Of a stretch of 64,000 nt of DNA, positions 21,367-44,139 are shown piece after piece. Both the position numbers and the translations under genes were made by a program. The notes beneath the pieces are model-generated. The model was not told the origin of the DNA and did no database searches. It saw only the letters and a program-made list of their open reading frames with translations. Source of the stretch: an uncultured Clostridia bacterium (GTDB lineage Bacteria > Bacillota > Clostridia > Christensenellales > Borkfalkiaceae); contig CALVZS010000001.1 of assembly GCA_944372575.1 (NCBI GenBank), positions 62,001 to 126,000 of the forward strand, given 5' to 3'. The first letter of the stretch is position 1, and each line of letters begins with the position of its first letter.

Positions 21367-21371
21367 GCAGA

Positions 21372-26486: not shown

Positions 26487-26583
26487 TTCGGCACCTCGCC
26501 AGAAATTTCCCGAAAAGAACAAACGGCGGAGAGAGTATCTTCGCCGACTTGTCCTTATGTTAGGTTACAAAATTGTCATCCGA

Positions 26584-27819
26584 TCAGGAGTTGGCCTCTG
26601 TCAACTCTGTGATCCCGTCGATGCGCACATCGAAGTAGGGCGCGCTGCGGTGACGGGATTCATAGAACACGCCGTCCTCGATCGCCTCGGTATCGGGCGT
26701 GAAAGCATCGTCGGTGTCGACGTCTGCCAGATAAGAAGTGAGATGCTCGCCGTTGACGGTGAACGCGGAGCAGTCAAACACCTGCAGCGTACCGTTACGC
26801 AGTTCCGCCTCGACTTCGGCAAGTTTTTCTGCAGTACCCTCGGCAGCCGCCCCGCCCAACTCGGTCAGGACAACAGAACCCGTTTCCAGGGTACCCTTCC
26901 AGTCGGTATCGATCGTTTCCCCGTTCGCCACGCAGTCGATCATGTACTCGAAGTAGGGAACCCAGTTGATGCGCGAGGAGACGATGTAGGTATCGGGGCA
27001 GGACGCCGCCGTGCTGCCGTTGTAGGAGACGTTGGGAACGCCTGCATCCTCACAGGCATTGGGCGCGCCCATGGAGTCTGCGTGCTGGGAAATGAGCGCT
27101 GCGCCGCGCGAAATGAGCAGCCGCGCCGCATCGTTTTCCGCCTGCAGGTCATACCAGGAACTGGTATAGGTGACTTCCATCGAGACGCTGATCAGCGTCT
27201 CCTCTTCCACCACAGATCTTGCGCCCAGGAAGAAAGAGGTGTAGCCGGAGACGACTTCCGCATAGGGATATGCGCCGACGTAACCGATTTTGATGTTGCC
27301 GTCCGTATCGAAATTGTCTGCGTCCAGCACATCGCCGGCCTCGTACATTTCAACGAGCTTCATACCTGCGGCAACGCCCGCAAGGTATCTGCCCTGGTAG
27401 ATGTGCGCGAACGCATTGTGGAAGTTGGGAACATTTTCGGTATGTGCCGTGGTTCCCGTCGCATGGCAGAACTCCACATCGGGAAACTCCCGCGCCGCCT
27501 GCAGCATAAAGGACTCATGGCCGAAAGAGTCGGCGAAAATGACGTCACAGCCCTGATCGACGAGATCTGCCGCCGCATTGTAGCACTCCTGCGTCTCCGG
27601 GATCCCCGTCTTGATGATGAGGTGATCGGCATCGATCCCCTTGTTCTCACATGCCTCGCGGATGGCGTCGAGGAAGTTCTTGTCATACGTCGAGTTGTCA
27701 TCGTGCAGGGCGATGAAACCGACCGTCAGTTCGCCGTCCCCTTCCGTACAGCCCGCAAGCGCGCCGACACCTGCGACCGCAATGGTTGCCGCCAGACCCA
27801 AAGCCAACAGTTTCTTCAT
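26584..27819 (-). CDS. BMP-family nucleoside-binding lipoprotein
   Basis: 411 aa. A signal peptide with lipobox GALAGC ends at about residue 24. The mature part is a periplasmic-binding-protein fold of the BMP/Med family (VGFIALHDDNSTYDKNFLDAIREA, VIFADSFGHES, HATGTTAHTENVPNFHNAFAH, YQGRYLAGVAAG). The extracytoplasmic receptor of the importer encoded downstream. ATG at 27819 follows AAAGGAGA. The adjacent xanthine phosphoribosyltransferase gene suggests a purine nucleoside or base as cargo. Confidence 0.92.
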   Translation of the reverse strand: MKKLLALGLAATIAVAGVGALAGCTEGDGELTVGFIALHDDNSTYDKNFLDAIREACENKGIDADHLIIKTGIPETQECYNAAADLVDQGCDVIFADSFGHESFMLQAAREFPDVEFCHATGTTAHTENVPNFHNAFAHIYQGRYLAGVAAGMKLVEMYEAGDVLDADNFDTDGNIKIGYVGAYPYAEVVSGYTSFFLGARSVVEEETLISVSMEVTYTSSWYDLQAENDAARLLISRGAALISQHADSMGAPNACEDAGVPNVSYNGSTAASCPDTYIVSSRINWVPYFEYMIDCVANGETIDTDWKGTLETGSVVLTELGGAAAEGTAEKLAEVEAELRNGTLQVFDCSAFTVNGEHLTSYLADVDTDDAFTPDTEAIEDGVFYESRHRSAPYFDVRIDGITELTEANS

Positions 27820-27883
27820 AATGTTTCTCCTTTCCCGATAAATTATATAAAAATTATCGTTCCCAAAACAAAAAACCGCGCCG

Positions 27884-28459
27884 TCACTCTGCGCGGAACA
27901 CGACGCTCTCATCCGTCATGGAATCGATGATGGCGAGAGAGTCGACACGGATCCCCTCGGCACGGAGTTTGTCCCCCGCGCCCTGAAATCCCTTTTCAAT
28001 GGCGATGGCGCAGCCGACAAGGTGTGCCTCTGCATTCTCGATAATGCGGATGAGGCCGCGCACGGCGTTGCCGTTGGCGAGAAAGTCATCCACGATGAGG
28101 ACGTCATCGCCCTTCTTGATATAGTCCTTTGCAACGGCGATCTCATACGTCTCCTTGTGCGTGAAGGAATAGACGGATGCCGTATACACTTCCTTGGGCA
28201 TATTGGCGCTCTTGTGCTTTTTGGCGAATACGCTGGGAACGTGCAGGGCAATCCCCGCCGCAACGGCAATAGCGATGCCGGAGGATTCCACCGTCAGCAC
28301 GCGGGTGATCTTCTCGCCTGCATACAGGCGTGCAATCTCGCGTCCGATCTCCATGATAAAATCGGAGTCCATCTGCTGATTGAGGAAGCTCCCCACTTTG
28401 AGTACGTTCCCGGGAAGGACGGTTCCTTCCGCAAGGATCTTTTCTTCAAGCGCCTTCAT
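27884..28459 (-). CDS. xpt: xanthine phosphoribosyltransferase
   Basis: 191 aa, the normal size of Bacillus Xpt, which salvages xanthine to XMP with PRPP. The N-terminus LEEKILAEGTVLPGNVLKVGSFLNQQMD is highly characteristic, and the PRPP loop is VLIVDDFLANGNAV. AAGGATTACC precedes the ATG. It starts the operon of xpt, lipoprotein, ATPase and two permeases, so uptake and salvage are co-expressed. No purine riboswitch was found in its leader. Confidence 0.95.
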   Translation of the reverse strand: MKALEEKILAEGTVLPGNVLKVGSFLNQQMDSDFIMEIGREIARLYAGEKITRVLTVESSGIAIAVAAGIALHVPSVFAKKHKSANMPKEVYTASVYSFTHKETYEIAVAKDYIKKGDDVLIVDDFLANGNAVRGLIRIIENAEAHLVGCAIAIEKGFQGAGDKLRAEGIRVDSLAIIDSMTDESVVFRAE

Positions 28460-28490
28460 TGGTAATCCTTATGGAAAATGTATAATAACA

Positions 28491-28519
28491 CTATATCACA
28501 ATCGGGAGCATAAGTCAAT
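28491..28519 (-). promoter_or_regulatory. sigma-A promoter for xpt and transporter operon
   Basis: Minus strand: -35 TTGACT (28514-28519), 17-nt spacer, -10 TATAGT (28491-28496), giving a leader of about 25 nt. That is too short for a purine riboswitch. Confidence 0.85.
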
Positions 28520-28581
28520 TAAATCGACGAAGCGAGCGCCTCTTCCGAAAAAAATATTTTGCAGGATTTTCACACACTCTT

Positions 28582-28618
28582 AAAAAACGGGCGCGGTTCC
28601 CGTTCAGAAACGCGCCCG
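28582..28618 (-). terminator. intrinsic terminator of the eight-gene AAA/GH3 operon
   Basis: Stem CGGGCGCG/CGCGCCCG (28588-28595 and 28611-28618) with a 15-nt loop, followed on the minus strand by six T. It lies 8 nt after the last stop codon of the operon. Confidence 0.88.
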
Positions 28619-28625
28619 GATTCAG

Positions 28626-30572
28626 TCAGAACCGCCACTGCAGCCATCCGGCTGTCACCGTGATATTGTAATTATACGTCACGTCATTTCCTTCAAGGTC
28701 ATAGATGACGATACGGGATATGGTATTTTCAACGGGGATTCCCTGCGACGGATACAGTACGCCCGTGACGTCCGCCTCAAGATACTGCCCCTGCGCGAGC
28801 GAGCCGAACGAGATCCAGTAGGCGGGATCATACCATGAATCGCCGTAGAGCGGCTCCCCGTTCCAATCGGCAGACACGGAAATGCTCGTCACACCGATGG
28901 GACGCGGCAGAATGCGCAGCGCGCACATGCCCCCGTCCTCGTAGCGCAGGAGATTTTCCGACATGACGTCCCGCCCCGTGACGGGATCGGTCGCCGAGAC
29001 GCACGCCTCCCCGAAGTCCGCCGCCCAAAGCTCCCCCGCATCCGTGCGCGCGGGAAAGGCACAGGACACCTCGACGTCGGGCGGCTTGACGACGGAATAG
29101 TCCTCCTCCGTCAGCGAATGGGGCTGCCCGTCATAGTAGATTTCAACACTGTAGAAGGTGACGATGATCTCCGTCTTGACGCGCAGCTTTCCGTACTCGT
29201 AGGAAAAGTCATAGCAGTCCGTAACGTCGCCGCCGTCCGCTGCCGTCACGGTGAACTCGAGCGCATTGTCCACATAGCGCACCTCCGTTTCGCTGTCCGT
29301 GATGTCATAGAGCGTGTTTGCGCGCACGGAGGCGGGCGTCGGGGAGAGCGTATCACCTTCCGCAAGCCCGTAGGGCGAAGTCCCGGCAATGCCGTAATCC
29401 CCGGGCGCGGACGCCATGAACCCCACGCCGTGCTGATAGATCCAGGTGCGCGATGCCGTCCGGACGGTGACGGGGCGGGGCGTCACGGTGAGCGTGCCGC
29501 CGTCGCTGCGGAAGGAATAGTTGGCGGTCACCTCCCTTCCCGCGCCGTCAAAGACGGCAAGATCGGGCAGATTGGCAGCGCTGCCCGCCAGCGTGAGCGA
29601 CGCGTCGGCAACGACGCGCAGGCGATGCCCCGCGACGAGTTCCCCCTCCGCCCGAAAGGAGGGCGCGGTGAGCGGCGTGCCGTCATACATCTTCTGCGCG
29701 CTGTCCGCCCGGATGACGATCTCGCGCGGCAGCACCGTGAGTACCGCTTCCCGCCACTCCACGGCGTACCATTCGGTCACATCCTCCCCCGCCGCATTGT
29801 AAACGGTGAGGGCGGGACGATTGTCCGTTGTGCCGGCATCCGTAAGCTCGTCCCAGGCGAATTCCATCCGGTCGCCCTCCGCAAGCGTGCCGCTCTCCAC
29901 CTCGCACGAGGGCGCCGAGAGCGGCATGCCGTCATATACCTTCTGCGCGCTCTGCGGCGCGAGCGTGATCGGACGGGCGAGCTGCTCCGCCTCCGCCTTG
30001 CAAGCGGAGATCGAATAGCAGTCGGTCACGTCCTCCCCCGCCCCGTTGACAACGGAGCACACCTGTACCTCCACCTCATACGTCTGTCCCGTGAGAGGGC
30101 GGTAGGAAAATGCCACATCGCCGAGGCTGTCCGCATAGGCAAGGGTGGCGGTGACGGCGGGATCCTCGCCGTAGAGGAATGTATCCGCCGCCTGCACTTC
30201 CAGCGCGCGGGGCAGGACGGAAAAAGTGAACACGTCCCCGTATTTTTCTCCCGATATGCCGCGGGACACGGCGCGCACCTCATATTCCCCGACACGGGTC
30301 GGCTGCTCCGGCGACCACTCGTCCGTCCCCTTTTCGCGGTACTCCGCCGCTGCGCTGCCGAACACAGCCTTTGCCCGGAAACCGACGGGCGCGCCGTACT
30401 CGACGGAGGCAGGACAGAACTGATCGTAGAGATTGCCCGCCACCGCACACAGCGTGATGATGAGCGCGGCGATCAGTACGAGCGCGGCAAGGAGGAGGAA
30501 GCGGAACTTCCAAAATTTGTCGAGCACGCGGACTCCGCGCTCGAGTTTTTCCTTATAAGAACGATAGAGCAT
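28626..30572 (-). CDS. membrane-anchored surface protein with MBG/YDG-type repeats
   Basis: 648 aa. One N-terminal membrane helix (about 24-46) after a basic cytoplasmic segment; the rest should be outside. The exported part is a chain of beta-rich modules. Two are marked by SAQKVYDGMPLSAPS and SAQKMYDGTPLTAPS, and others by EDVTDCY, EDVTEWY, REVTANY and NDVTYNY ends, each about 85 residues. This is the MBG/YDG-like pattern of bacterial surface proteins. The same SAxKxYDGxPL repeat occurs in the transglutaminase encoded upstream, so the two probably act together. No sorting motif or catalytic site was recognised. Last gene of the operon. Confidence 0.8.
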   Translation of the reverse strand: MLYRSYKEKLERGVRVLDKFWKFRFLLLAALVLIAALIITLCAVAGNLYDQFCPASVEYGAPVGFRAKAVFGSAAAEYREKGTDEWSPEQPTRVGEYEVRAVSRGISGEKYGDVFTFSVLPRALEVQAADTFLYGEDPAVTATLAYADSLGDVAFSYRPLTGQTYEVEVQVCSVVNGAGEDVTDCYSISACKAEAEQLARPITLAPQSAQKVYDGMPLSAPSCEVESGTLAEGDRMEFAWDELTDAGTTDNRPALTVYNAAGEDVTEWYAVEWREAVLTVLPREIVIRADSAQKMYDGTPLTAPSFRAEGELVAGHRLRVVADASLTLAGSAANLPDLAVFDGAGREVTANYSFRSDGGTLTVTPRPVTVRTASRTWIYQHGVGFMASAPGDYGIAGTSPYGLAEGDTLSPTPASVRANTLYDITDSETEVRYVDNALEFTVTAADGGDVTDCYDFSYEYGKLRVKTEIIVTFYSVEIYYDGQPHSLTEEDYSVVKPPDVEVSCAFPARTDAGELWAADFGEACVSATDPVTGRDVMSENLLRYEDGGMCALRILPRPIGVTSISVSADWNGEPLYGDSWYDPAYWISFGSLAQGQYLEADVTGVLYPSQGIPVENTISRIVIYDLEGNDVTYNYNITVTAGWLQWRF

Positions 30573-30582
30573 CTCGCCTCCG

Positions 30583-32484
30583 TCAGATGACGCGCAGCGT
30601 GCCGTAGCGGACTTCGATTGCGTAATTGCCCGTCACATCGTTGCCGTCCTCATCATATATGGTAAGAAAGACGACGCCGTTCTCACTCTTGCCGCGCTCC
30701 GTCCGCGCGCCCGAGAGTTCGACGCGCATCCGATGCCCCTCAACCAGTCCGTAATACCCTTCCAATGTGTAATCGGCACAAGTGAGCGGCGTGCCGTCGT
30801 ACTCCTTTGTCGCCGAGCCGGTCACGAGTGTGATCGGCCGCGCCTCCACCTCCAGAACGCCGTACTCTTTCTCTATGGCGTAGAGATAGGTCACGTCGTT
30901 GCCGTCCTCATCCAGGATGCGCACACCGCGGAAGAGATTGACGGTCTTTCCCACCGAAGTGAGCTGTGTCCGCGAGCTGATCGCATAGGAATGTCCCGGA
31001 AGCAGGTCGCCTGCCCAGGTCTGCAGGGTCACATCTGCACGCAGCGGCTGCCCGTCATACATTTTGGAGGCGGACGAACTGATAAAGCGAAGAGGCCGCG
31101 CGGCGATCACGTCGCCACCCCAGGAATCCCCGGAACCGGCAGAGCCGGTCACTTCCACATTCACCCAGCCGAAGCCGTCCAGATAGACCTCCACCCACGC
31201 ATGGGCATTGGAGGAGAGAATATTGACGTATGTGTTCGCCTGCGTGTCGCCCACATAGCCGATGACATAACGTGCGGGGATGCCGAGTGCGCGGTAGAGC
31301 AATGTTGCGGCAGAGGCAAAGTGCTGGCACACCCCGGCGCGGTAGCGCGTGAGGAAGGCGGACACGATGTCCTCCTCCTGATCGAGCGCGCGGTCATACC
31401 CGCTGTCATAACGGGCGACATTCTTGATATACTGCGCGATTTCGGCGATGACGCCCTCGCGGTTTTTGTTCCAACCCCGCTCTGCGATGATGGATTGCAG
31501 CAGCTCGTTCGTCCCGTCGGGAACGCTAAGATAGTTCTCATATACAAAGGCGCGGTAGGCGGCCTCCACCGGCTTCATGTCGGCGGGCAGCTCTTCCCGG
31601 GGAAGGCCGTCCCGCACATAGTCGTAGTCATAGCACCAAAGAGAATAGGGAAGTTCCGTGCTCCCGGAGCAGACGACGTCGTCCGTCTGCACGGTGTAAT
31701 TTTCCCCGCCCATCTCTTCGTTATCCAGGTCGAAATAGTAGGGCTGCAGGTACTGCGTGCCGTTGACGATGATCTTCATCCAAACGGAGTTCCACGCCCC
31801 CTGCCCGAGCCGGTAGCTCGGCAGATAGTTCATGCCGTAGCCCTCCGCAACGGGATAGGACACCGCCCCGCCCCACGCCTGCCCGGTGTAGTCCCCGAAG
31901 CTCTTATATCTGAAATACACGCGCGCATCTTCGTCGGCGTAAACCGTGAGCGCAACCGTAGCAAAGCCGAGACTGCCGCCGCCCGTTCCGCCGCTGCCGC
32001 TCTCACCACCGCCCTCCGGGGCGCCGATCTGGCCGCTCTCATCCAGCATGGGAGATCCGCTCCCAGAGCCGCTGCCGCCCGTTCCGCCGCTGCCGCCGCC
32101 CGAAAAATCGGGAAACTGCACGTCTCCCCATTCACCTTGGGATCCGTCTCCCGGTTCACCGCCGGGATCGCCCGACCCGCCCGGATCGTCCCCCGGCTGT
32201 GCGGGATCGTCGCCCGACCCGCCCGGATCGTCCCCCGGCTGTGCGGGATCGTCGCCCGGAATACCGGGGCCGTCCCCGCCGCCGCCCGTTCCGCCGCCTC
32301 CGCCGCCCCCGGGAGGGTCGATGGAGGGCAGGTCTTCGGGAAGATCCAGACCGATATCGGGAAGATCGGGCGTTCCGATGCGGATCCTGCCGAGCGCGAG
32401 GAGCGCTGTCATCGCGATCGCTGCACACAGCAGGATCACGAGTACCGTGCCGACGATATATACCCATTTCGATCTCTTTGACAT
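30583..32484 (-). CDS. membrane-anchored transglutaminase-like protein with C-terminal MBG/YDG-type repeats
   Basis: 633 aa. Helix at about 9-32, then a Gly/Pro/Asp-rich linker (about 45-175) containing two copies of a 14-residue unit (GDDPAQPGDDPGGS). The transglutaminase core (about 350-450) has the catalytic Cys in RAGVCQHFASAATLLYRALG (Cys about 386) and His in SNAHAWVEVYLDGFGW (about 428). The usual third residue Asp appears as Glu (VNVEVT). Two repeats with SASKMYDGQPL and SATKEYDGTPL follow to the end. It may crosslink or cleave surface polymers. It lies 11 nt before the repeat protein. Confidence 0.85.
   Translation of the reverse strand: MSKRSKWVYIVGTVLVILLCAAIAMTALLALGRIRIGTPDLPDIGLDLPEDLPSIDPPGGGGGGGTGGGGDGPGIPGDDPAQPGDDPGGSGDDPAQPGDDPGGSGDPGGEPGDGSQGEWGDVQFPDFSGGGSGGTGGSGSGSGSPMLDESGQIGAPEGGGESGSGGTGGGSLGFATVALTVYADEDARVYFRYKSFGDYTGQAWGGAVSYPVAEGYGMNYLPSYRLGQGAWNSVWMKIIVNGTQYLQPYYFDLDNEEMGGENYTVQTDDVVCSGSTELPYSLWCYDYDYVRDGLPREELPADMKPVEAAYRAFVYENYLSVPDGTNELLQSIIAERGWNKNREGVIAEIAQYIKNVARYDSGYDRALDQEEDIVSAFLTRYRAGVCQHFASAATLLYRALGIPARYVIGYVGDTQANTYVNILSSNAHAWVEVYLDGFGWVNVEVTGSAGSGDSWGGDVIAARPLRFISSSASKMYDGQPLRADVTLQTWAGDLLPGHSYAISSRTQLTSVGKTVNLFRGVRILDEDGNDVTYLYAIEKEYGVLEVEARPITLVTGSATKEYDGTPLTCADYTLEGYYGLVEGHRMRVELSGARTERGKSENGVVFLTIYDEDGNDVTGNYAIEVRYGTLRVI
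32175..32258. repeat. 42-bp tandem repeat inside the transglutaminase linker
   Basis: Two near-identical 42-bp units encode GDDPAQPGDDPGGS twice, with a degenerate third part beside them. Such units change copy number easily, so linker length may vary between strains. Confidence 0.7.
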
Positions 32485-32493
32485 ACTGCCCTC

Positions 32494-33936
32494 CTATCCG
32501 TTGCGCGCGATGCGGCGGATGTATTCCTCACACTCCGCCAGTCTGCCCTCGCCGAACAGTTCGTCCAAAAATGCACAGAGCCCCTCTGCCTCGCTGCGTA
32601 CGTATGCGGCATTGAGGGCGACCAGCTTGCGCAGCACCTTCTTGCAGAGGATATCGTCCAGTGCATCCAGTTCTTCTCCGCCGCACGCGACATAGACGGA
32701 GACGTAGTTGCGGATCTGCTTCATGATGCGGTTGCCGAACGTAATCTGGAAGGTATCGATGAGATACTCGTCCAGCATCTTCAGGCGCCGCTCGTTGCGG
32801 CCGGTCAGTTCAAACCATGCCTGTTCGCTCCCGACGAGGGCGAAAAACTCCTCCGCGGGGAAGGAGACGCTGCCCTGCAGCCGCTCCTCGCCCGAAAGCT
32901 CGAAGCGCTCCGCCTTGTTGTTGAGTTCGAGCACCATTGCGCGGTCATACACCTTGTCGGAGATGGCAAACGTCGAATCGTCGTTGTTGACCGTGCCGAT
33001 AAACCACATGTTCTCGGGCAGCTTGATGCGCCCGTCTTTGAGCCCCTTCGGGTCGTTCTGCCACACGTCGGGGACGACCTCGAGATAGCGCGACTCGGGG
33101 TCGGGGATCTCCAAAAGGGACAAGAATTCCGCGAAGTAGTACTCCACGCGCGCGATATTCAGCTCGTCGAGCACGGTGATATAGATTTGGTTGCTCTCGT
33201 TCGCCTCATACATCTTGTCGAGCAGCATGGTCTCGTTGAACTTTTTGGTAAACTCGTTGTAATAGCCAAGAAGGTCGGTGCGCTCCTTCCACATGGGCTG
33301 TACGGGGATAATGACGGAGGGATTGCCCAGAAATTCACCGAACGCATAGGCGAGCGACGTCTTGCCCGTGCCGGAGATGCCCTGCAGAATGAGGATGTGC
33401 GAGACGGCAAGCCCCGCGATGAATTCGCGGATGACGGAGATGTCGTAATAAAGCCCCAGCCGCGCCGCCGCAAAGATGCGGAATTTTTCGCACAGCGACT
33501 GCAGGGAACGCACGGAATTTTCCGCCGCCGCACGGGGCGCGCTGCGCCTGTCAAGTTCCGCGAGCATCCCGAAGCGGGGCGGCGGAAGCGCATTCTTTTT
33601 CGCCTCCCGTTCGGCGCGCTCGCGCTCGATGCGCTCCGCCGCCTGGCGCAGGGCGTCCTGCCAGACAAAGCGCATCTCGCGCAGCTTTTTCCTGCGGCGC
33701 AGGCCGATGACGAACAGGATGATGAGCAGAACGGGGATGAGCAGCACCCAGATGAGAAGCAGGATACTGTAGACGCCGCCCGCCGCGAAAAACTCCGCAA
33801 TGCCGGCAAAGAATGCATCCCCCAGTCCCGTCACCCGCAGATAGATCAGACCGCCGATGAGCGTTCCGCCCACAACGATCAGCAGCGCAATGAGAAAGAT
33901 CCAGAGTTTGTCGTGCCGTTTACGCGTGCGTTCCAT
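32494..33936 (-). CDS. membrane-anchored McrB-like AAA+ ATPase (paralog 2)
   Basis: 480 aa. Two N-terminal helices (about 11-34 and 55-79), a charged linker, then an AAA+ domain. Walker A QGISGTGKTS is at 185-194, Walker B IYITVLDELN at 251-260, the sensor-1 region at FIGTVNNDDST, and the DRAM arginine near 332. The LDELNIARVEYYF and GNRIMKQI segments resemble the McrB/AAA_5 group rather than classical MoxR. No nuclease partner is adjacent. The central part is nearly identical in DNA to the gene at 35737. Its start overlaps the upstream stop by 17 nt. Confidence 0.85.
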   Translation of the reverse strand: MERTRKRHDKLWIFLIALLIVVGGTLIGGLIYLRVTGLGDAFFAGIAEFFAAGGVYSILLLIWVLLIPVLLIILFVIGLRRRKKLREMRFVWQDALRQAAERIERERAEREAKKNALPPPRFGMLAELDRRSAPRAAAENSVRSLQSLCEKFRIFAAARLGLYYDISVIREFIAGLAVSHILILQGISGTGKTSLAYAFGEFLGNPSVIIPVQPMWKERTDLLGYYNEFTKKFNETMLLDKMYEANESNQIYITVLDELNIARVEYYFAEFLSLLEIPDPESRYLEVVPDVWQNDPKGLKDGRIKLPENMWFIGTVNNDDSTFAISDKVYDRAMVLELNNKAERFELSGEERLQGSVSFPAEEFFALVGSEQAWFELTGRNERRLKMLDEYLIDTFQITFGNRIMKQIRNYVSVYVACGGEELDALDDILCKKVLRKLVALNAAYVRSEAEGLCAFLDELFGEGRLAECEEYIRRIARNG

Positions 33937-35719
33937 CTTCTCTCTCCTTCTCCTGCTGCGAGGCGCCGTCCCCGGCGGCCTCCTCCTGCACCGGCGCGGC
34001 GCTCACGCCCTCTCCGCCCGCATCTGCTGTCTGCTGCGCGCCCTCCTCTTCGGCCTGCGCCGGGCGCGCTTTTTTTGTGCGCGAGCGCAGCCATCCGCCC
34101 AGGATATTGCGCCGAAGCAGCTGTTTTGCGCTCGTCCACTGGCTGCGGGCATACCCGGCAAGCACCTCCAGTTCATGTTCCAGTTCGGTAAACGCCGCCT
34201 CCGACGTGTAGTCATCCGTCTGTGTGAGCAGCCCGTGTTCGCTGCGCAGCGCCGTGAGGCGCGCATGAAGAAGGGCGCACTGCTCTTCCCGTGCGGCGAG
34301 CGCTGCCTGCAGCTGCGTGCGTTCGGCACTGTCCTGCCTGATCTGCGCATCCCGTTCCTGCACCGCCCGTTCGTTCTTTTCGTTGAGCTGCGCGATCTCC
34401 TCCGCTTTTTGGCGGGTGAACTCGACGAGGGCGGCAGCGTGCTGCTCCTCTGCTTCATCCGCCCGGCGGCGGAGTTCCTCCTCGCGTTCATCGCGGCGGG
34501 AAAGCTCCTCGGCGTGGGAGGCGCGCAGTTCCTCCTCCTGAGCGTGGCACGCCTCAATCGTCTGCTGCAGGGCGGTCTTTTCCGCGCTGAGCGCCTCGAT
34601 CTCCGAGCGCGCCTGCACAAGCTGCCCGCTCTCCTTCTCCAGTTCGCCGATGCGCCGTTCGAGCAGCAGCATATATTCCTCGGGCGAACATTTCTTCTCG
34701 CGCATCCGCCGGCGCAGGTTTTCCACCTGCTCCTTCAGCGCGCGCGCCTCCTCCTCCCTGCGCCGGCGCTCCTCCGCCTCATACGCTTCGCGCAGCGCGG
34801 CGCCGATCTCCATGCCGTGTTCATAGGTGAGAAAGGAGAGCAGCAGCACGGGTTCGGCGAACTGCTCCGCGACCGCGCGGTCTGCAAGGTCGACGGCGTG
34901 TTCTTCCCTGCTCACGGTAAAGCCGTCCCGCGTGTAGGCGACGAGAAACTCGTAGAGCGCGACGACCTCCTTGAAGTTTTTATCCATGCGCAGGACGTTG
35001 GTCTTGGTGATGGGCGGTTTGAGCTTATCCGCCTTGGCGACTTCGGACATGAGCGGCGTATGCAAATAGAAATACACCGAACGCTGCAGCCGTTCCAGAT
35101 GCCCGAGCACTTCCCCGAGCTCGCTGCGGCTGCGCAGGTAGGGATCGTCGTCGGACGCCTCGCGCAGCGAAATATCGCATTGCAGGCGGCGCTTGCCGGA
35201 GGTCACAGACTTGTGCAGCACCGCCTCCCCGCGGTAGGTATTCGTCTCGCGGACGATGCGGTTGTAGCGCAGCGAGATGAAGTCGTTGAGCATACACAGC
35301 ACCATGTATAAAAAGCGGTTCTCATACACGGCATAGTTGTTGAGCCGTTCCACGGTAAAGAGCTTTTCGGGGAGCAGATCCTCCCCTTCCGCCGGCTCCC
35401 GCGTGATCAGGTTGCTGTGCCGCGCAAGGTGTTCCGCCGTCTCGCGTGAGACGTGGCGCACCTTCTCGATGGGCTGCACCTCCCCCTCCGAGCGGATGAA
35501 CTGCCGATCCTCATCGATCGCCTTGCCGATAAAGACGAGCCCGCGGTCGATAGCATCCACCCAGTCCTGTTCGACGTGGCAGGTGACCCGGGTGACGCTG
35601 ACCTTGTCCCCCTCTCCCGCCCGCGCAAGCTCGTCACGCAGGACTCTGCTCTCCCGCTCCCTTCCGAGCGCTTCGCGGTACGCGAGGAAGGCTCTGTAAA
35701 ATACATCAAGCTGCCCCAT
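33920..35719 (-). CDS. coiled-coil protein of the AAA/GH3 operon (possibly DUF2357-like)
   Basis: 599 aa, soluble. The N-terminal 330 residues are globular, with a conserved-looking ERLNNYAVYENRFLYMVLCMLNDF block reminiscent of the TPENRF pattern in DUF2357 proteins that pair with McrB-like ATPases. That link is tentative. Residues about 335-530 form a long Glu/Arg/Ala coiled coil, followed by a basic patch (RSRTKKARPAQ) and a disordered Glu/Gln tail. No PD-(D/E)XK nuclease motif was found. The ATG at 35719 follows GGAGGGG. It sits between the two ATPase genes, suggesting a shared partner. Confidence 0.72.
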   Translation of the reverse strand: MGQLDVFYRAFLAYREALGRERESRVLRDELARAGEGDKVSVTRVTCHVEQDWVDAIDRGLVFIGKAIDEDRQFIRSEGEVQPIEKVRHVSRETAEHLARHSNLITREPAEGEDLLPEKLFTVERLNNYAVYENRFLYMVLCMLNDFISLRYNRIVRETNTYRGEAVLHKSVTSGKRRLQCDISLREASDDDPYLRSRSELGEVLGHLERLQRSVYFYLHTPLMSEVAKADKLKPPITKTNVLRMDKNFKEVVALYEFLVAYTRDGFTVSREEHAVDLADRAVAEQFAEPVLLLSFLTYEHGMEIGAALREAYEAEERRRREEEARALKEQVENLRRRMREKKCSPEEYMLLLERRIGELEKESGQLVQARSEIEALSAEKTALQQTIEACHAQEEELRASHAEELSRRDEREEELRRRADEAEEQHAAALVEFTRQKAEEIAQLNEKNERAVQERDAQIRQDSAERTQLQAALAAREEQCALLHARLTALRSEHGLLTQTDDYTSEAAFTELEHELEVLAGYARSQWTSAKQLLRRNILGGWLRSRTKKARPAQAEEEGAQQTADAGGEGVSAAPVQEEAAGDGASQQEKEREDGTHA

Positions 35720-35736
35720 GCGATCCCCCTCCGACC

Positions 35737-37020
35737 TTACACGCTTCTGGCGATGCGGCGGACGTATTCCTTGCAACGCGCCATCCGCCCGTCGCCGAAC
35801 AGTTCATCCAGAAAGCTGCACAGATCCTCCGATTCGCTGCGGATATATGCGGTATTCTGCGTCTCAAGCTTGCGCAGCACCTTCTTGGTCATGATGTCGT
35901 CCAGCGCATCCAGTTCTCCGCCGCCGCACGCCATATAGATGGGAAGGTAGGTGTGGATCTGCCGCATGATGCGGTTGCCGAAGGTGATCTGGAAGTGTTC
36001 GATGAGATATTCGTCGAACTTTCTGAGCTTCTCCATCGTATCGGCGGAGACGGGATGCGCCGCCACCGCCTGCGCGGCGAGCGAAGTAAACTGCTTCGCC
36101 GTGATGCGGACGGTATGCGCGCCGGATGCCTGGAAGGGCTCCGACTTGCGGTCGAGGTTGAGCACCATCGCGCGGTCGTACACCTTGTCGGAGATGGCGA
36201 ACGTCGAATCGTCGTTGTTGGCGGTGCCGACGAACCACATATTCTCGGGCAGCTTGATGCGCCCGTCTTTGAGCCCCTTCGGATCGTCCGGCCACTTGTC
36301 CGAGACGACCTCCAGATAGCGCGACTCGGGATTGGGGATCTCCAAAAGGGACAAGAACTCCGCGAAATAGTACTCCACGCGCGCGATGTTCAGCTCGTCA
36401 AGGATGGTGATGTACATCTCCTCGCGCTCATTTGCCTCATACATCTTCTCTAGAAGCAGCGTCTCGTTAAAGCGCTTGGTGAATTCATTGTAATATCCCA
36501 GAAGGTCGGTGCGCTCCTTCCACATGGGCTGTACGGGGATGATGACGGAGGGATTGTCCAGAAATTCGCCGAACGCGTAGGCGAGCGACGTCTTGCCCGT
36601 ACCCGACATGCCCTGCAGAATGACGATGTGCGAAACGGCAAGCCCCGCGATGAATTCGCGGATGACGGAGATGTCGTAGTACAGCCCCAGCCTGCCCGCC
36701 GCAAAGATGCGGAACTCCTCGCACAGCGCGCTGAGGGTGAGTTCCTCGGGCGCGCCGGTCTCGGGCGCCTCGCTCTGCGCGGCATCGTAGAGCTTGAGCA
36801 TGGAGAAGCGCGACGTATGCTCCGGCTTTTTCTCATCCTCCCTGCGCTCGCGCTCCGCCCTGTCCGATGCCGCCTTCATCTCCCGCGCCGCCGCGTTGAA
36901 GCGGTGTTCGTTGACCATGACGGAGATGACGATGAGCAGCATGATCACAACGATCACGGCGATATAGATGATGAGATAGGTGGGCCGGGTAAGCACCTCC
37001 CAGATTTCTTCCATTGTCAT
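35737..37020 (-). CDS. membrane-anchored McrB-like AAA+ ATPase (paralog 1)
   Basis: 427 aa. A single helix at about 14-36, a charged linker, then the AAA+ domain with Walker A QGMSGTGKTS (136-145), Walker B MYITILDELN, sensor FVGTANNDDST and DRAM arginine. The C-terminal helical part (DEYLIEHFQITFGNRIMRQI...ACGGGELDALDDI) is shared with paralog 2 and, in decayed form, with the GH3 fusion protein. ATG at 37020 follows GGAGAGGGG and overlaps the stop of the fusion gene. The two ATPases may form a hetero-ring. Confidence 0.85.
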   Translation of the reverse strand: MTMEEIWEVLTRPTYLIIYIAVIVVIMLLIVISVMVNEHRFNAAAREMKAASDRAERERREDEKKPEHTSRFSMLKLYDAAQSEAPETGAPEELTLSALCEEFRIFAAGRLGLYYDISVIREFIAGLAVSHIVILQGMSGTGKTSLAYAFGEFLDNPSVIIPVQPMWKERTDLLGYYNEFTKRFNETLLLEKMYEANEREEMYITILDELNIARVEYYFAEFLSLLEIPNPESRYLEVVSDKWPDDPKGLKDGRIKLPENMWFVGTANNDDSTFAISDKVYDRAMVLNLDRKSEPFQASGAHTVRITAKQFTSLAAQAVAAHPVSADTMEKLRKFDEYLIEHFQITFGNRIMRQIHTYLPIYMACGGGELDALDDIMTKKVLRKLETQNTAYIRSESEDLCSFLDELFGDGRMARCKEYVRRIARSV

Positions 37021-40000
37021 ACGCTTCCCCTCTCCTTTCTTTTTTGATTGACTCTCGCAAGCATTGTCCGGCATGTGCCGATCTCCTCGGCGCCGAAGAT
37101 CTTCTCCATGGCCGAGAGCAGCGCCGTTCCCCCGTCCGACAGGACGGGCGCAAGCGCAAGCAGGCTGCCGAGCAGCTGCGTTGCGACGGCGCGATCGAGC
37201 GCATCCGTCTCACTCCCGCCGCAGGCGAGGCAGACGGAGACAAAGCGCTCCATCCTGATCCACGCGCGGTTGCCGATGCGCACGGGCGCGCGTTCCGCCA
37301 GCCACTCCTCCAGCCGGTCGATGCGTTTCCAGAGCCGCTCCTCCAGCGGATACGCGCTGCGCACCGCCTCGCAGAGGTTGGCAAACTGATAGTATCCGGG
37401 CGTGCGGACGGCCGTCCTGACGGCCGCTTCCCTGCCCGTGCGCACGGAAACGTCGAGGACGGACGCGATGTCCGTGACCGACGCGGGAAAGGCGGACGGC
37501 GCCTGATCGCTCAGCACCGCGATCCAGAGGTTGGGCGGCACCACGAACGCGTTTCCCGCCTGTCCCTGCAGACGGGCGACGTGCTCCGCCGCACGCGCAA
37601 AGATGAGATCGGCCATCACGTCCGGATGCGCATGGCGGCAGAGCAGAACGAACATCGCGCCCGGCTCCCGCCCCGCGTCGATGACCGCCTGCGCCAGTCC
37701 GTCCGTCCGCCCGCGGCGGTAGAGATAGCTGTCGTAGCGGAACTCCTCGTCCACGGTATCGGCATACGCCTTTGTCCCGAAATATTCGGAGAGAGCCGCG
37801 CAGAGCGCCTGCACCTGTTCCTGCGCCTCCAGAGGGAAAAACAGCACGCGCGAGCAGGCAAATGCCGCCAGCAGGCTGCGCAGATCCCCCTCGGCAAGTA
37901 CAATGCCGCGCTCTGCAAGAAACACCGAGAGCTGACGGCAGATGACCGCAAAGGTAAAATCCCGGTCAAAATACTTCGGTTCATCGGACAAGGGAAAGGT
38001 GCCGCTCTCGGCGCGCTCGGCCGAAAATACGCTGTCAAACACTTCCGGCGCCGTGGTCGCAGGCAGGACGGGATCGTCAAAGGCGAGCCTGCGCCCCTCG
38101 TTTGCGCGCCGCAGCACGGAACGGTGGACGGCATTTTCCGCAATGAGCGCCGCCGCACAGACGGCGAGCATTGCAGCAAGGACGATCAGGAGCGTCACAT
38201 GACTTCCGAGCTCCTGCCCCGTCGCGGCGATCACCGTAAACGCGATGACGAATGCCGCAAGCACCCCCAAGAGCAGGGCAAGCGCGCCGATGCGCAGCCA
38301 TCTGCGCCGCTGGGAGGCGCGCGCCCCGCGGGCCGCACTCAGGCGGTACGTCTGCCCGATATTGGACAGATCCCGGAAATATGCGCCCGCATCGCGCGTG
38401 TCCGAGGCGGGCCGATCGCCTGCAACGGCACGCACGCCCTGCAGGCGGATGTCCGTCACGGACGCCCCGATGCAGATCTTGTACCGCCCCTCCGCCACGC
38501 TCTCGCCGTGCGTTGCCTCATCATACGTCGCAAGCGCCCCGCGCGGAAGCGGGATGGTCACCTCGCGCGCCTCTCCGGGCGCGAGCGTTACGCGTGCATA
38601 CCCCTTGAGCTCCTTCTTCGGCATGGGGAATCCGGGCGCGCCGACATAGAGCTGCGCAACCTCGCACCCCTCCCGCCTGCCGGCGTTGCGCACGGTGAAA
38701 CGGACTTCGTCCTCCCCGATGTGCAGTCCGGAATAGACAAATTTTGTATAGGTAAGGCCGTATCCGAAGGGATAGCGCACCCGCATCCCCGCCGTATCGT
38801 AATAGCGGTAGCCGACAAACGCGCCGACGCGCGTTCTGCCCGCATCGCGGTCGGCGCACAGCGCCCGGTACCGGGCATCCGCGCCGTCATACCGGCTGCG
38901 CGTGAGCCGTCCGCAGGGCGATATGCGCCCCGTAAGGACGTCCCCGAGGGCGGCGGCGCAGAACTTGCTCTCCAGCGGCGCCGTCAGCACCGCATCGAGC
39001 GCGCCGTCCTCCGCCATGTCCGCCGGAAGATCGGCGGGAAAGACGCCGATCATGCGCTTGCCCGTCCTCTTCAGCACCCGGAGCAGTTCCGTCAGATTGG
39101 CGGGCAGGGCGAGCGCACGCACACTTTTATCCGCATCGAAGGTCGGATGCAGGAAAATGACGATGACGTCCGCGGCTTTTGCGGCACGCACCGCCTCCTC
39201 CGCGGGAATATCGTCCGTCGCCTCCTCGCGGGGATATCCCGCCGCACGCGCAGTGACGGAAAGACCCGCATCCGCAAGTCCTCCGCACGCATCCCCGATG
39301 ACGGCAACGCGCGTCCCCTCCTTGAGGGGAAGGACGCCGCTGTTTTTCAAAAGTACGATGCTCTCACGCGCCGCGCGCAGGCCGAGCGTCTGCCCGTCCG
39401 CCGATGCCGCGGACGCCGGCACAATCTTGCTGACGCGGTAAGCAAACCCGAGGACGCGATCTGCAGCCTCGTCCACTGCCGCGGGCGGAATGGCGATCCC
39501 GTCCTCCTCCGCGCCCTGCAGTTCCCGTTCGCTGACACTGCCCGCCTCCCGTTCGCGCACGAGCTTTTTATCCCGCCCGAGCGCACGGGAGAGCGCGACC
39601 CCGTCCCCGCCGATGCACACGTTCCCCCCGAGAAAGGCGTGGTAATCCACATCGGGCGCGAGGCGGCGCGAAAGGGCAAATACGTCTGTTCCGTAATCGC
39701 CGCTGACGATACCCGAAAACAGACGGACGTTGGTCGAAAGATACCCGCCGCACGGACGGTCGAGCGCGGAGACGATCGCATCGCATGCCTCCCCGCGCGC
39801 CGCAAGCGCAAACGGCTTGCAGAACAGGTCGTACACCGCGCGCCTGTCCTCATCCAGATCGAGATAGGCGACGTCCTCCGCACCGCACGAGAGCTGCGCC
39901 AGGGCGACCGCTCCGCCCGCCGCATGGACGGCGCGCGCCATTGCAGCGCCCGCCTCGCCGTTGAGCAGGGCGTCCTCGGACAGTCCCCGCGCATAATCAT

Positions 40001-40289
40001 TGGCGGCACACTTCAGATCGGGCGTCACAAAGAGACGGATCCCTTTGCTGCGCGCCTGCGCGGCAGACAGCTGTGCCGCCTGCGCGATCAGTTCGCCGTC
40101 CCAGGCGCACATCATGCTCTCATAGGAGGGAAACCCGTTCTCCGCCGCCAGATCGGACAGCGCCGCCGTCTGCACGGACGGCACACCGAGCGCGGCGATC
40201 TGCGGATCGGAGAGCGCCGAAAGGTCGGTGACCAGCGCCGTCTTCTTTTCGTCGCTCAGTTTTTCAAGAATGTTCCTGTATTTCAACAT
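37017..40289 (-). CDS. GH3-like protein fused through a membrane hairpin to a degenerate AAA+ domain
   Basis: 1,090 aa. Residues 1-290 follow the GH3 N-domain (LSDEKKTALVTDL, AALGVPSV, GLSEDALLNG, SGDYGTD, DEAADRVLGFAYRV), 300-480 the GH3 C-domain (AARESIVLLKNSGVLPL, VGYRYYDTAGMRVRYPFGYGL) and 515-615 the FnIII-like end. D198 sits where the nucleophile is expected, but the substrate-binding KHF is replaced by AQLS and the TAYN motif by SALD. Two helices (664-688, 697-717) with basic flanks imply both ends are cytoplasmic. Residues 775-1085 align with the operon's AAA+ domains but lack Walker A (PLEAQEQVQ) and Walker B. No signal peptide. Probably a sensor or scaffold. Confidence 0.82.
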   Translation of the reverse strand: MLKYRNILEKLSDEKKTALVTDLSALSDPQIAALGVPSVQTAALSDLAAENGFPSYESMMCAWDGELIAQAAQLSAAQARSKGIRLFVTPDLKCAANDYARGLSEDALLNGEAGAAMARAVHAAGGAVALAQLSCGAEDVAYLDLDEDRRAVYDLFCKPFALAARGEACDAIVSALDRPCGGYLSTNVRLFSGIVSGDYGTDVFALSRRLAPDVDYHAFLGGNVCIGGDGVALSRALGRDKKLVREREAGSVSERELQGAEEDGIAIPPAAVDEAADRVLGFAYRVSKIVPASAASADGQTLGLRAARESIVLLKNSGVLPLKEGTRVAVIGDACGGLADAGLSVTARAAGYPREEATDDIPAEEAVRAAKAADVIVIFLHPTFDADKSVRALALPANLTELLRVLKRTGKRMIGVFPADLPADMAEDGALDAVLTAPLESKFCAAALGDVLTGRISPCGRLTRSRYDGADARYRALCADRDAGRTRVGAFVGYRYYDTAGMRVRYPFGYGLTYTKFVYSGLHIGEDEVRFTVRNAGRREGCEVAQLYVGAPGFPMPKKELKGYARVTLAPGEAREVTIPLPRGALATYDEATHGESVAEGRYKICIGASVTDIRLQGVRAVAGDRPASDTRDAGAYFRDLSNIGQTYRLSAARGARASQRRRWLRIGALALLLGVLAAFVIAFTVIAATGQELGSHVTLLIVLAAMLAVCAAALIAENAVHRSVLRRANEGRRLAFDDPVLPATTAPEVFDSVFSAERAESGTFPLSDEPKYFDRDFTFAVICRQLSVFLAERGIVLAEGDLRSLLAAFACSRVLFFPLEAQEQVQALCAALSEYFGTKAYADTVDEEFRYDSYLYRRGRTDGLAQAVIDAGREPGAMFVLLCRHAHPDVMADLIFARAAEHVARLQGQAGNAFVVPPNLWIAVLSDQAPSAFPASVTDIASVLDVSVRTGREAAVRTAVRTPGYYQFANLCEAVRSAYPLEERLWKRIDRLEEWLAERAPVRIGNRAWIRMERFVSVCLACGGSETDALDRAVATQLLGSLLALAPVLSDGGTALLSAMEKIFGAEEIGTCRTMLARVNQKRKERGSV

Positions 40290-40842
40290 ATTCCCTCTCT
40301 GTCTGCAAATACTGCGCGCCGCCCCGCGCAATAACGCCGGGCAGAACGGCGGCAAGCACGGCCGCTGCCAGCGCAACGATCGCAAGAACGATGATCGCGG
40401 CCGCCCGTCTGTGTGAACGGGACACGCTCCCGCCCTTTCCCCGGAAAAATCCCGCAGCCCGTCTGCGCGCAGGCGCCGGCTGCATCAGGATGCGCTTCCC
40501 GTCTGCGGAGAGCGTATACGCATGCCCGTCCGAATACACGGCGACAACGCGCACCTCGACCGCCTTCCAGACGGCGGGGAGCGCAAGATCGGGCAGGAGA
40601 AATTCCTCGCCCGGCGGGCCGAAGATGCGCATGACGTCAAACTCGCGCTCCTCGCGCCCCTTACGTTCCACGTCCGTGCGCACGACGCGCAGCCGGACTC
40701 CCGTCACCGGGAAGGGCATATCGTTGCGCAGGCGCAGCGCCAGACGGTTCATATTCTGACCGTTCAGGACGAGGGACTGATGCACGGTGACGAAAAAACC
40801 GCCCTCGTATTCCCGTTCGGACAAGATCTCAGGCATTGCCAT
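40264..40842 (-). CDS. tail-anchored membrane protein of the AAA/GH3 operon
   Basis: 192 aa. A soluble beta-rich N-domain of about 125 residues (SLVLNGQNMNRLALRLRND; AVWKAVEVRVVAVYSDG), a basic stretch, one helix at about 143-168 and a 20-residue tail. The domain is not recognised; its strand pattern is like a small immunoglobulin- or C2-like sandwich. ATG at 40842 follows GGGAGGAGGGG and overlaps the upstream stop by 14 nt. It also overlaps the GH3 fusion start by 26 nt, so all three are translationally coupled. Confidence 0.7.
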   Translation of the reverse strand: MAMPEILSEREYEGGFFVTVHQSLVLNGQNMNRLALRLRNDMPFPVTGVRLRVVRTDVERKGREEREFDVMRIFGPPGEEFLLPDLALPAVWKAVEVRVVAVYSDGHAYTLSADGKRILMQPAPARRRAAGFFRGKGGSVSRSHRRAAAIIVLAIVALAAAVLAAVLPGVIARGGAQYLQTEREYVEIQEHS

Positions 40843-41731
40843 CGGCGCCCCTCCTCCCCCTGTCGCGCTTCCGGGCGCGCGGAGCATGGCCCGCGCGCGG
40901 CCGAAGCAGCAGAACGGGCGCGCTCCATGCAACCGCGTGCAGCGCATTTATCAGCGTGCACTTCGCTTTTTCCAAGGCATATGCGACCGCCCCTCCCGCC
41001 CGCCGCAGCGGCTTCCATACGGGACGGACGATGCCGGGACGCAGGCGGCGCCGAAGCAGCCGGACTGCAAAAACGGCGGCTGCGACGGCAAGCGGGATCA
41101 GCACGATGCCCGCTGCGACGAGAAGCAGCAGTCCCCCCGTCTCATTCCATCCGGCAAACGCAAGAGGGGGAAACAAGCCCGCCGTAAAGGAGAGCGTGAA
41201 CCAGATGAGCGCATCGGCGGCAAGGGCGATGCTGAAAAGAAAGAGCGTCAGCCAGGCAAAAAAGGGCAGGACGCGCACGGGCGCATGAAAGCGCTCCGCG
41301 CCTGCACGATGCAGCTGCACCGAAAGATAGTCCGTCCGCCGCGGCAGATCGGTCACGGCGGTGAAGCGCTTGCCTTCCACCCGCTCCCGCACGCGGATGA
41401 CGTCCACGCACCGCCCGCGGCGGTCAAAGGCGATCAGGCTGTAGTTCGCATCCGAGATCGGATACGCCCATTCGCCGAGAAAATACTTTTTTTCCGATGA
41501 GTTGAACTGATAGACCTGATACTGCCGCAGGCAGCGCTGCATGGGGACGGCGGGCGTGTACAGAACGGAGATCCCCTTTTCCAGGTTGCACCTGGCAATG
41601 CCACGGTCACGCACGGGGAGGGAATATGCGCGCAGACAATGCAAAAGACGGATCGGCACCGTGACGGCAAACGCCATCGTCAGACCGATCCCCACAATCA
41701 ACCATATGACCGAAAATACCAACCAAAGCAC
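40829..41731 (-). CDS. membrane protein opening the AAA/GH3 operon
   Basis: 300 aa from a GTG at 41731, chosen because GAGGGGG lies 6 nt upstream. An ATG at 41758 is in frame but has no site. One helix (about 2-24) is followed by about 125 extracytoplasmic residues (CNLEKGISVLYTPAVPMQRC and a YLSVQLHRAG strand), two more helices (about 155-190 and 200-224) and a strongly basic cytoplasmic tail. No family recognised. First gene of the operon. Confidence 0.65.
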   Translation of the reverse strand: MLWLVFSVIWLIVGIGLTMAFAVTVPIRLLHCLRAYSLPVRDRGIARCNLEKGISVLYTPAVPMQRCLRQYQVYQFNSSEKKYFLGEWAYPISDANYSLIAFDRRGRCVDVIRVRERVEGKRFTAVTDLPRRTDYLSVQLHRAGAERFHAPVRVLPFFAWLTLFLFSIALAADALIWFTLSFTAGLFPPLAFAGWNETGGLLLLVAAGIVLIPLAVAAAVFAVRLLRRRLRPGIVRPVWKPLRRAGGAVAYALEKAKCTLINALHAVAWSAPVLLLRPRAGHAPRARKRDRGRRGADGNA

Positions 41732-41806
41732 CTTGCGCCCCCTCTCTTCCGCCCGCATTCCAACGCATATTCATGCAATTTCTTGATAAAATCTGCTGTC
41801 AGATTC

Positions 41807-41835
41807 ATTATATCATAGGAGAGCGGAAAAAGCAA
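41807..41835 (-). promoter_or_regulatory. sigma-A promoter of the eight-gene AAA/GH3 operon
   Basis: Minus strand: -35 TTGCTT (41830-41835), 17-nt spacer, -10 TATAAT (41807-41812). The leader to the preferred GTG is about 70 nt. No other good promoter was found inside the operon. Confidence 0.82.
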
Positions 41836-41973
41836 TGCTTCCGGCACCGATTTTCGGGCGTTTTCCCGTATGGTGACATGCTCCCATGCGCATACGATGG
41901 CGTGTTTTTATGGACAACAGCATAAAAAGTCTTTTATATCAGCAAATCAACCGTGCTTACACATTTCCTTTCA

Positions 41974-42612
41974 TTATATGGACATTACCTTGATTTCACA
42001 TCTCACGCCGGCATAATCGATCGTTACCTCTCCGGGTTTAAGGCCCTCTATCATTACTGTGAAATAATTCCCGGCATCCGTTTCAAGCCTTACGACTGTC
42101 TCGTCAGATACCTGCCAAACGGAGGGAATTATGCCGGTCACGTCGCTCTTGTCGCCTTCCACCATTTGTATTTGCGGCATCCTTGACAGAAGTTTCACCG
42201 ACAGCAATGGTATCTTTTTCTTTTTCGATACAACGTGTATCGACTGTTTCAAACCATAAATCCCGACAGGCCCGGACATGATTGATACGTTCATCCTCTC
42301 TCAAAACACGATAAAGTCCTGTTTTTCCGCAAGTTTATCCTCCTCTAGCACAAAAAGCAACCCCAGAGGCGTCCATTCATTTACGTTTTTTTCCGTAACA
42401 TAAACTTTTTGAAACTGCAATGATGCAAATGCACTCTCAACGTCTTTCAATACATCATTCTCAAAACCGGCTTTTACATAGGCATAAACGGCATTATCGT
42501 TCGTCCACACCAAATCATCTTGTTCCCGATTATTGCCGCAGCCGCTCAGGAACCCCACCATGAAAGCAGAAGCCATCATCGCCGCCAAGATACCTGCAAA
42601 TCTTTTTTTCAC
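41974..42612 (-). pseudogene. lipoprotein gene interrupted by an in-frame TGA
   Basis: The first 103 codons give a lipoprotein (MKKRFAGILAAMMASAF...FLSGCGNN lipobox near residue 25) ending at a TGA at 42301-42303. The same frame continues without interruption from 42300 to 41974 for another 108 codons (NVSIMSGPVGIYGLKQSIHVV through VRCEIKVMSI), which looks like a beta-sandwich domain. The internal ATG at 42294 has GAGAGG directly abutting it with no spacer, a poor initiation site. One original gene of about 213 codons broken by a nonsense mutation is the best reading. Two separate small genes are possible. Confidence 0.6.
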
Positions 42613-42629
42613 AACCTCCCTCCTTAACC

Positions 42630-42985
42630 TTAAAATTCTGTAACGGTTATGACAACCGCATCAGATACCATTTCATGCCATGTTCTGTTTCCCTGACCAT
42701 CCGCCAAATAAAATGATGCTTTGAATTTTATCTCATGCTGTCCGAAATCAAAATAGCCCCCCCAAATTATATTTGGAAGAAATGACATCCTCCTGAAAAT
42801 CTTTTATTATATGGATCCACAAAAAACGCAACGAAACAAATACCTTCATACGTTCCGTTGCGGCAGATCATAGATTGAAAAATCCTCCCGGTTTCTCTGT
42901 TTATTGCAACAAACCCTGATGCGAACTCCTGATTGTTTACAATGCCGTAAAATACCTGTTCGGATACATAGCTGTACCCATGTCA
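42630..42985 (-). pseudogene. frameshifted remnant of an unknown small gene
   Basis: One frame reads as protein-like sequence for about 65 codons (YVSEQVFYGIVNNQEF, GFVAINRETGRIF, GTYEGICFVAFFVDP). The continuation moves to another frame (FLPNIIWGGYFDFGQHEIKF, then YLADGQGNRTWHEM to VTEF and stop at 42630-42632). The shift occurs near 42770-42795, around AGGAGG and a run of seven G. No start codon fits the first part. An intact promoter lies just upstream. Function unknown. It directly precedes the interrupted lipoprotein. Confidence 0.55.
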
Positions 42986-43014
42986 ATTATAACACATCGT
43001 ATTTTGAATGTAAA
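42986..43014 (-). promoter_or_regulatory. sigma-A promoter upstream of the frameshifted remnant
   Basis: Minus strand: -35 TTTACA (43009-43014), 17-nt spacer, -10 TATAAT (42986-42991). Presumably once served the remnant and the lipoprotein after it. Confidence 0.7.
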
Positions 43015-43083
43015 TAACAAAAAATGGATAACTTTTATAATTTCCCCGATAAGATTTTACTTGACACATGGCGTATCCGGCAT

Positions 43084-43113
43084 AAAAAAAGCGAAACGCG
43101 CTGACGCGTTCCG
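43084..43113 (-). terminator. orphan intrinsic terminator
   Basis: Stem GCGGAACGCG/CGCGTTTCGC type with a 4-nt loop, followed on the minus strand by seven T. No minus-strand gene lies to its right, only the plus-strand lgt promoter, so it may be left over from a deleted gene. The rest of 43015-43189 holds nothing else I recognise. Confidence 0.6.
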
Positions 43114-43189
43114 CAGCCCGTAAAATTGTATCACAACGGCATAGCTATGCCGGCGCCGTCGGGGCGATCGTAATTTTCCCGCGTCTCCT

Positions 43190-43218
43190 TGACAATCGCG
43201 ATGACCCGTGATATACTT
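43190..43218 (+). promoter_or_regulatory. sigma-A promoter for lgt
   Basis: Plus strand: -35 TTGACA (43190-43195), 17-nt spacer, -10 TATACT (43213-43218), 27 nt before the start codon. Confidence 0.85.
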
Positions 43219-43244
43219 GATTCAGTTTTTTACGCAGGTATTCT

Positions 43245-44021: not shown

Positions 44022-44063
44022 CCGTGTAGTCTGCTCCGGTTTCACCGAATTCTTTGTAAAATT

Positions 44064-44105
44064 GGCCCGGGCGGCGCATCTTTTGATGCGTCGCCCGGGC
44101 CGTTT
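44064..44105. terminator. strong bidirectional terminator
   Basis: A 17-bp stem (GGCCCGGGCGGCGCATC with GATGCGTCGCCCGGGCC, one mismatch) around TTTT lies between the convergent lgt and CPBP protease genes. T-runs next to it are short, but the stem is very stable. Confidence 0.78.
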
Positions 44106-44139
44106 CAGTTTATAACATGCCGCTCTTGCGAAGATGCAT

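Follow-up and report, generated by a model that had tools for sequence, protein, structure and literature searches.

In a 64,000-nucleotide stretch of DNA from an uncultured gut Clostridia bacterium (Christensenellales; Borkfalkiaceae; contig CALVZS010000001.1, positions 62,001 to 126,000; hereafter the window), we identified an operon of eight genes, g1 to g8, which we read, with a probability of roughly 0.55, as a nuclease-free, membrane-anchored McrBC derivative that would assemble, activate or remodel surface proteins. McrBC-type motors are familiar as restriction enzymes, where hydrolysis is stimulated through the interaction of McrC with the McrB ring. The reading rests on two anchored McrB-type motors, a McrC homologue encoded between them, and membrane-anchored repeat proteins that accompany them from genome to genome.

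The conserved core of the operon

The motors, g4 (motor A; window positions 35737-37020, minus strand, as for all genes below) and g6 (motor B; 32494-33936), were both matched by AAA_5 in the family profile search, and a profile search of the PDB returned McrB alone at E ≤ 0.01 (best 2e-5). According to the motif alignment, the Walker A, DE[LM]N, sensor-1 and arginine positions are kept in both proteins, which share 67% identity over the aligned part. The motor signature motif reads NNDD, which fits NxD followed by D as well as NxxD and aligns without gaps to the NTAD of McrB. Both motors carry N-terminal transmembrane (TM) anchors, a single segment in g4 and a two-segment hairpin in g6, and hydropathy counts gave one TM segment for motor A in 36 of 38 loci and two or more for motor B in all 38. 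By sequence, g4 and g6 are McrB-type AAA+ motors with a membrane anchor and intact motifs.

Between the motor genes lies g5 (33920-35719), where DUF2357 (PF09823), by family definition the N-terminal domain of McrC, scored above the cut-off (3e-6). The g5 model (predicted local distance difference test score, pLDDT, of 81) has a helical C-terminal half and ends in a helix of ~150 residues that occupies the position of the McrC nuclease; no nuclease was recognized in g5 by the family scans, and the protein has no TM segment. Judged by its domain content and model, g5 is a McrC homologue with the nuclease end replaced by a long coiled coil, here called the rod. The sequence-only reading that preceded this analysis had taken the McrB-like ATPases to lack their usual partner; they belong instead to a derived McrBC pair, the coiled-coil protein being the carrier of DUF2357.

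The motors are followed by two membrane-anchored surface proteins, g7 (30583-32484) and g8 (28626-30572), each with an N-terminal TM segment. g7 consists of a short basic cytosolic tail, often KR[ST]KxxY, the TM segment, a glycine-rich linker, a transglutaminase core (4e-24; cysteine and histidine kept, glutamate at the third position) and two YDG/MBG-like repeats. The repeats of g7 and g8 align to each other (E 2e-21), as expected from the earlier proposal of surface proteins with a common repeat module, and resemble YDG/MBG domains with weak Pfam matches. The cytosolic tail of g8, MLYxxYxxKL in the window and MxYxxYxx[KR][LIM] across 37 loci, comprises ~24 residues before the TM segment and is nearly constant in length, while the whole protein varies from ~400 to more than 2000 residues. 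That the tails are conserved while the rest of these surface proteins varies suggests that they are recognized from inside the cell. Many g7 proteins are without the transglutaminase letters and often have Trp/Pro-rich repeats instead. The g7-type protein at L052:11165-19510 (L numbers denote loci, G numbers genomes) numbers 2781 residues and contains three copies of the transglutaminase core along with 14 DUF1542 stretches.

A scan with g4 as query yielded 62 loci, of which 57 were counted after L086-L090 had been set aside; the loci were fetched with g4, so its presence in them is not independent. Motor, rod, motor and repeat protein follow each other in order in 35 of the 57 loci, with g3 also in front of this core in 29, and many of the remaining loci are cut by contig ends. 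Separate searches of 200 genomes of the order with g3, g8 and g4, where a g8-type protein was a match covering the N-terminal part, found a g8-type protein in all 15 operon genomes. Sixteen genomes have a g8-type protein, and only G055 is without a motor; it was rejected as a counterexample, its contig ending ~0.5 kb beyond g7. The hypergeometric probability of this co-occurrence is ~1e-21, for genomes sorted into sets by hand and with related genomes that are not independent. Outside the order, the phylum sample gave distant matches only. Motor A, rod, motor B and repeat protein(s) make up the invariant core, and the earlier expectation that cytoplasmic ATPases and repeat surface proteins are conserved together is upheld: the neighbourhood is strongly conserved, its parts staying together in many genomes. 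A contig titled Acholeplasmatales (L067) also carries a window-type operon.

In front of the core, g3 (37017-40289) combines a GH3 fold, an Fn3-like domain, a TM hairpin and a pseudo-AAA domain. GH3_C (3e-22) and the Fn3-like domain (4e-18) were found by family profile search, and residues 1-627 of the model (mean pLDDT 86) match GH3 beta-glucosidases with Z 36 over 581 residues. The domain after the hairpin is homologous to the AAA of the operon itself (E 1.6e-12) and has lost the Walker A, Walker B and sensor-1 motifs; the structural search returned nothing on this part, the match list being filled by GH3. The GH3 part has no N-terminal hydrophobic segment and is therefore probably cytosolic. 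Its catalytic aspartate column holds arginine in the window, glutamate in 21 of 38 and aspartate in 6 of 38 sequences, with a nearby gap that makes single cells uncertain. The GH3 part is absent from L047, L054, L056, L057 and L108, and the fusion, like the transglutaminase, is an addition specific to certain lineages; the operon had been described as built around the GH3 fusion, which is not universal, the core being complete without GH3. Just upstream of the operon, at L037:2076-4220, is a GH3 glycosidase gene that looks intact and keeps the SDY motif; g3 may have acquired its GH3 part from a gene related to it.

Near-identical motor pairs

In protein sequence, the motor domains of A and B are 98.5-100% identical at L060, L063, L067, L072 and L074, while their anchors differ. 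The motor pair of L063 differs by 56 synonymous versus 1 non-synonymous changed codons, and that of L074 by 61 versus 5; assembly error is ruled out for these two loci because the copies differ in DNA. In the motor tree the near-identical pairs cluster by genome, while the larger clade that includes the window keeps A and B as separate lines. These patterns suggest that gene conversion was confined to the motor and that selection then favoured an identical protein. Identical motor proteins would be expected if both were part of one ring or worked with shared partners, and the identity of the motors despite slot-specific anchors, together with the conserved g8 tail, hints at a mixed motor ring at the membrane.

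At L066, L077, L092 and L093, and likewise in G177:C26, G193:C2 and G095:C11, the contig stops within or beside a motor gene, probably as a result of near-identical paired repeats. Because contigs break at such repeats, binned genomes may seem to be without g5 and motor B. A real loss of these two genes at L061, L062 and L068 was considered and not accepted, since assemblies can collapse or break at identical repeats; searches of the rest of these genomes did not turn up g5, which neither proves nor refutes an assembly collapse.

Relation to known systems, proposed mechanism and alternatives

The operon is McrBC-derived and nearest to CoCoPALM, a system of McrBC plus SipW-type peptidases and pilins that was named by Bell et al. 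(2024) in eLife, with its description deferred to a later paper (PMC11090510). The features given for CoCoPALM are a motor fused to a TM/coiled-coil (FtsB-like) region, an NxD motor motif, linked signal peptidases and a McrC with a coiled coil. g5 has the fused coiled coil of the McrC homologue, and no linked signal-peptidase-family protein was found among the eight operon products by family scans. Loci that fit CoCoPALM were obtained in our own search: L102-L106 and L109-L111, which come from the same taxonomic order as the window, encode in sequence a SipW-type peptidase, a single motor, a DUF2357/coiled-coil protein and another SipW-type peptidase, and xxAW pilin-like proteins are encoded close by (a contig end truncates L106, and the gene order of L111 is slightly different). 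SipW-type proteins were assigned by likeness to those of L090, which are themselves matched by TIGR02228 and NF046067, and the motors of the SipW-linked loci L087-L090 have the same NNDD letters as the window motors. Both types place a membrane-anchored McrB-like motor beside a DUF2357/coiled-coil McrC homologue among surface-protein genes. They differ in that CoCoPALM has one motor with linked SipW-type peptidases and pilins, whereas the window has two motors with neither of these linked, and has, unlike CoCoPALM, membrane-anchored YDG/MBG repeat proteins, the GH3-pseudoAAA fusion and sometimes a transglutaminase. Window-type motors branch as a clade of their own in the motor tree, beside the CoCoPALM-like motors, at a fork that runs via two long branches and leaves the base unsure. 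Judged by identity levels, both kinds appear to be present in G634 and G705. In the window's genome, G000, a single archaeal-type (SipW-like) signal peptidase scored over the cut-off; it lies on another contig (C4:33708-34241, L116) and adjoins a pilin/camelysin-like protein (L132:7238-7897, in the neighbourhood L132), with no motor or DUF2357 gene noticed nearby.

With McrBC (McrB of E. coli; McrBC of T. gammatolerans, 6ut7) the operon shares the McrB-type AAA+ domain and the N-terminal domain of McrC (structural match weak), but it has membrane anchors and surface partners and no recognized DNA-binding domain, and family and defence profile scans of the eight products found no PD-(D/E)xK or other nuclease family. 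CoCoNuTs are likewise rich in coiled coils and can have a McrC homologue without nuclease; those that do always carry a linked HEPN or other nuclease (PMC11090510), whereas no linked nuclease was recognized in the window. It is about an even chance that the operon represents a separate branch within the McrBC superfamily, so far undescribed and sister to CoCoPALM: a heteromeric, nuclease-free membrane motor acting on repeat proteins of the surface and built from two subunits with different anchors, whose motor domains gene conversion has kept alike in some lineages and which a dead-AAA/dead-GH3 subunit has joined in others.

By analogy with McrBC, g4 and g6 would assemble into a mixed ring at the cytoplasmic face of the membrane, of six subunits if like McrB, and the DUF2357 part of g5 would sit in the ring pore, as McrC does in McrB, and drive nucleotide hydrolysis. 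The coiled coil of g5, in place of the nuclease, may relay the motion as output. The pseudo-AAA of g3 may dock to, join or cap the ring in lineages having g3. Mechanical work on g7 and g8 would enter via their short conserved cytosolic tails, and the repeat proteins could be extended, clustered or, where the transglutaminase is present, crosslinked at the surface. The operon would then be a counterpart of CoCoPALM, whose motor/rod pair links to SipW-type peptidases and pilin-like proteins. If this is true, the McrBC ring-and-rod motor has been reused at a bacterial membrane without a nuclease, for surface fibres or repeat proteins, and the operon supplies two naturally paired motors that share one engine but are anchored differently, along with a probable substrate bearing a short conserved tail. 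The role of nuclease-free McrBC relatives would thereby become testable, and the operon suggests that the ATP- or GTP-driven McrBC motor family has also been put to work on the cell envelope.

Several observations weigh against a nuclease-free surface-protein motor. The best VIA match of the g5 model, McrC (6ut7_G), reaches Z 7.6 over 131 residues, which is under the usual trust level and not convincing alone, and Foldseek with the g5 model alone gave no match at E ≤ 0.001; the McrC identity of g5 rests mainly on DUF2357 and the gene pairing. The identity of the motor domains could stem from shared partners instead of one ring. The operon is also patchy in the genus (6 of ~19 genus genomes listed), as in defence or variable surface loci, and the motor appears in PADLOC under a candidate defence family, PDC-M26A, which matches the two motors at 2e-47 and 2e-51. 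Together with the McrBC ancestry, the last two points are what favours the main rival, a membrane defence against phages or plasmids in which the McrBC-like motor senses invasion and the surface or membrane parts block entry or disrupt the membrane. We regard this as unlikely, since no nuclease, toxin or nucleic-acid-binding domain was recognized in any operon gene, the constant partner is a repeat surface protein, and the neighbouring genes, judged by sequence, look like transport and metabolism genes. Moreover, the PDC-M26A match spans only the shared AAA part and also takes in CoCoPALM-like motors. No paper was found in the literature on PDC-M26A, and a defence call that relies on this family may be wrong at window-type or CoCoPALM-like loci.

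More doubtful is a sensor of the envelope state, in which the GH3-like domain would bind a sugar or cell-wall precursor in the cytosol, with the ring regulating the cell-wall linkage or crosslinking of surface proteins. The complete GH3 fold with a nucleophile column that is mostly not aspartate, as for a binding-only domain, and the transglutaminase of the window lineage agree with such a sensor, but GH3 is absent from the loci named above and the transglutaminase from many, and the core is still complete; neither can thus be the central function. A cluster for MoxR-type maturation (MoxR chaperone, DUF58, transglutaminase) with unusual parts, to which the operon had earlier been compared, shares the AAA_5-class ATPase near a transglutaminase. 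We consider it highly improbable and did not accept membership: the motors match McrB and not MoxR, their partner carries DUF2357, and no DUF58 or VWA domain was found in the operon products by family profile search. The sequence-only reading had itself seen neither DUF58 nor a recognizable nuclease, which agrees with our scans; the nearest relatives are the CoCoPALM-type McrBC/pilin loci.

Operon boundaries, g1 and g2, and flanking sequence

The open reading frame list of the window places all eight genes on the minus strand between 41731 and 28626, tightly packed and in the order predicted earlier. With gene starts chosen to agree with family alignments, the junctions are overlaps of 4-26 nucleotides or gaps of 9-17. 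The promoter proposed at 41807-41835 (minus strand) is present and plausible: read directly, it is TTGCTT-N17-TATAAT with an extended -10 (TGn) and a modest -35 (3 of 6 matches), which places it below the strict scan cut-off, and it is hence unlisted there. The promoter scan found no minus-strand site of at least 9/12 inside the operon. The terminator predicted to close the operon (28582-28618, minus strand) was confirmed as a strong intrinsic one, with a folding energy of -21.6 kcal/mol, z -2.5 and a T run. As for the gene products, the GH3 domain, the AAA+ pair, the dead AAA, the transglutaminase and the repeats had been assigned in agreement with the families, and the McrC identity of the coiled-coil protein had been missed.

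The first gene, g1 (40829-41731, GTG start), encodes a membrane protein with ~3 TM helices and is a lineage-specific part; it has no Pfam or NCBIfam match, and the PDB profile search gave weak matches only, none convincing. g2 (40264-40842, 192 amino acids) is tail-anchored, with a cytosolic domain and a C-terminal membrane anchor; no family matched it, and the best PDB profile hit, to designed coiled coils (E 0.011), is not convincing. A protein of ~1400-1650 residues that resembles an expanded g2 occupies the g2 position at L063:1640-6619, L066:1438-6345 and L072:839-5029.

The operon lies at the same chromosomal site in close relatives, as its flanks are shared with L035 and L034. When window positions 18001-28600 were compared, the downstream flank proved common with L035 (92% identity over 1215 bp). 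On the upstream side (41851-52000 compared), a portion is common with L034, with an indel upstream.

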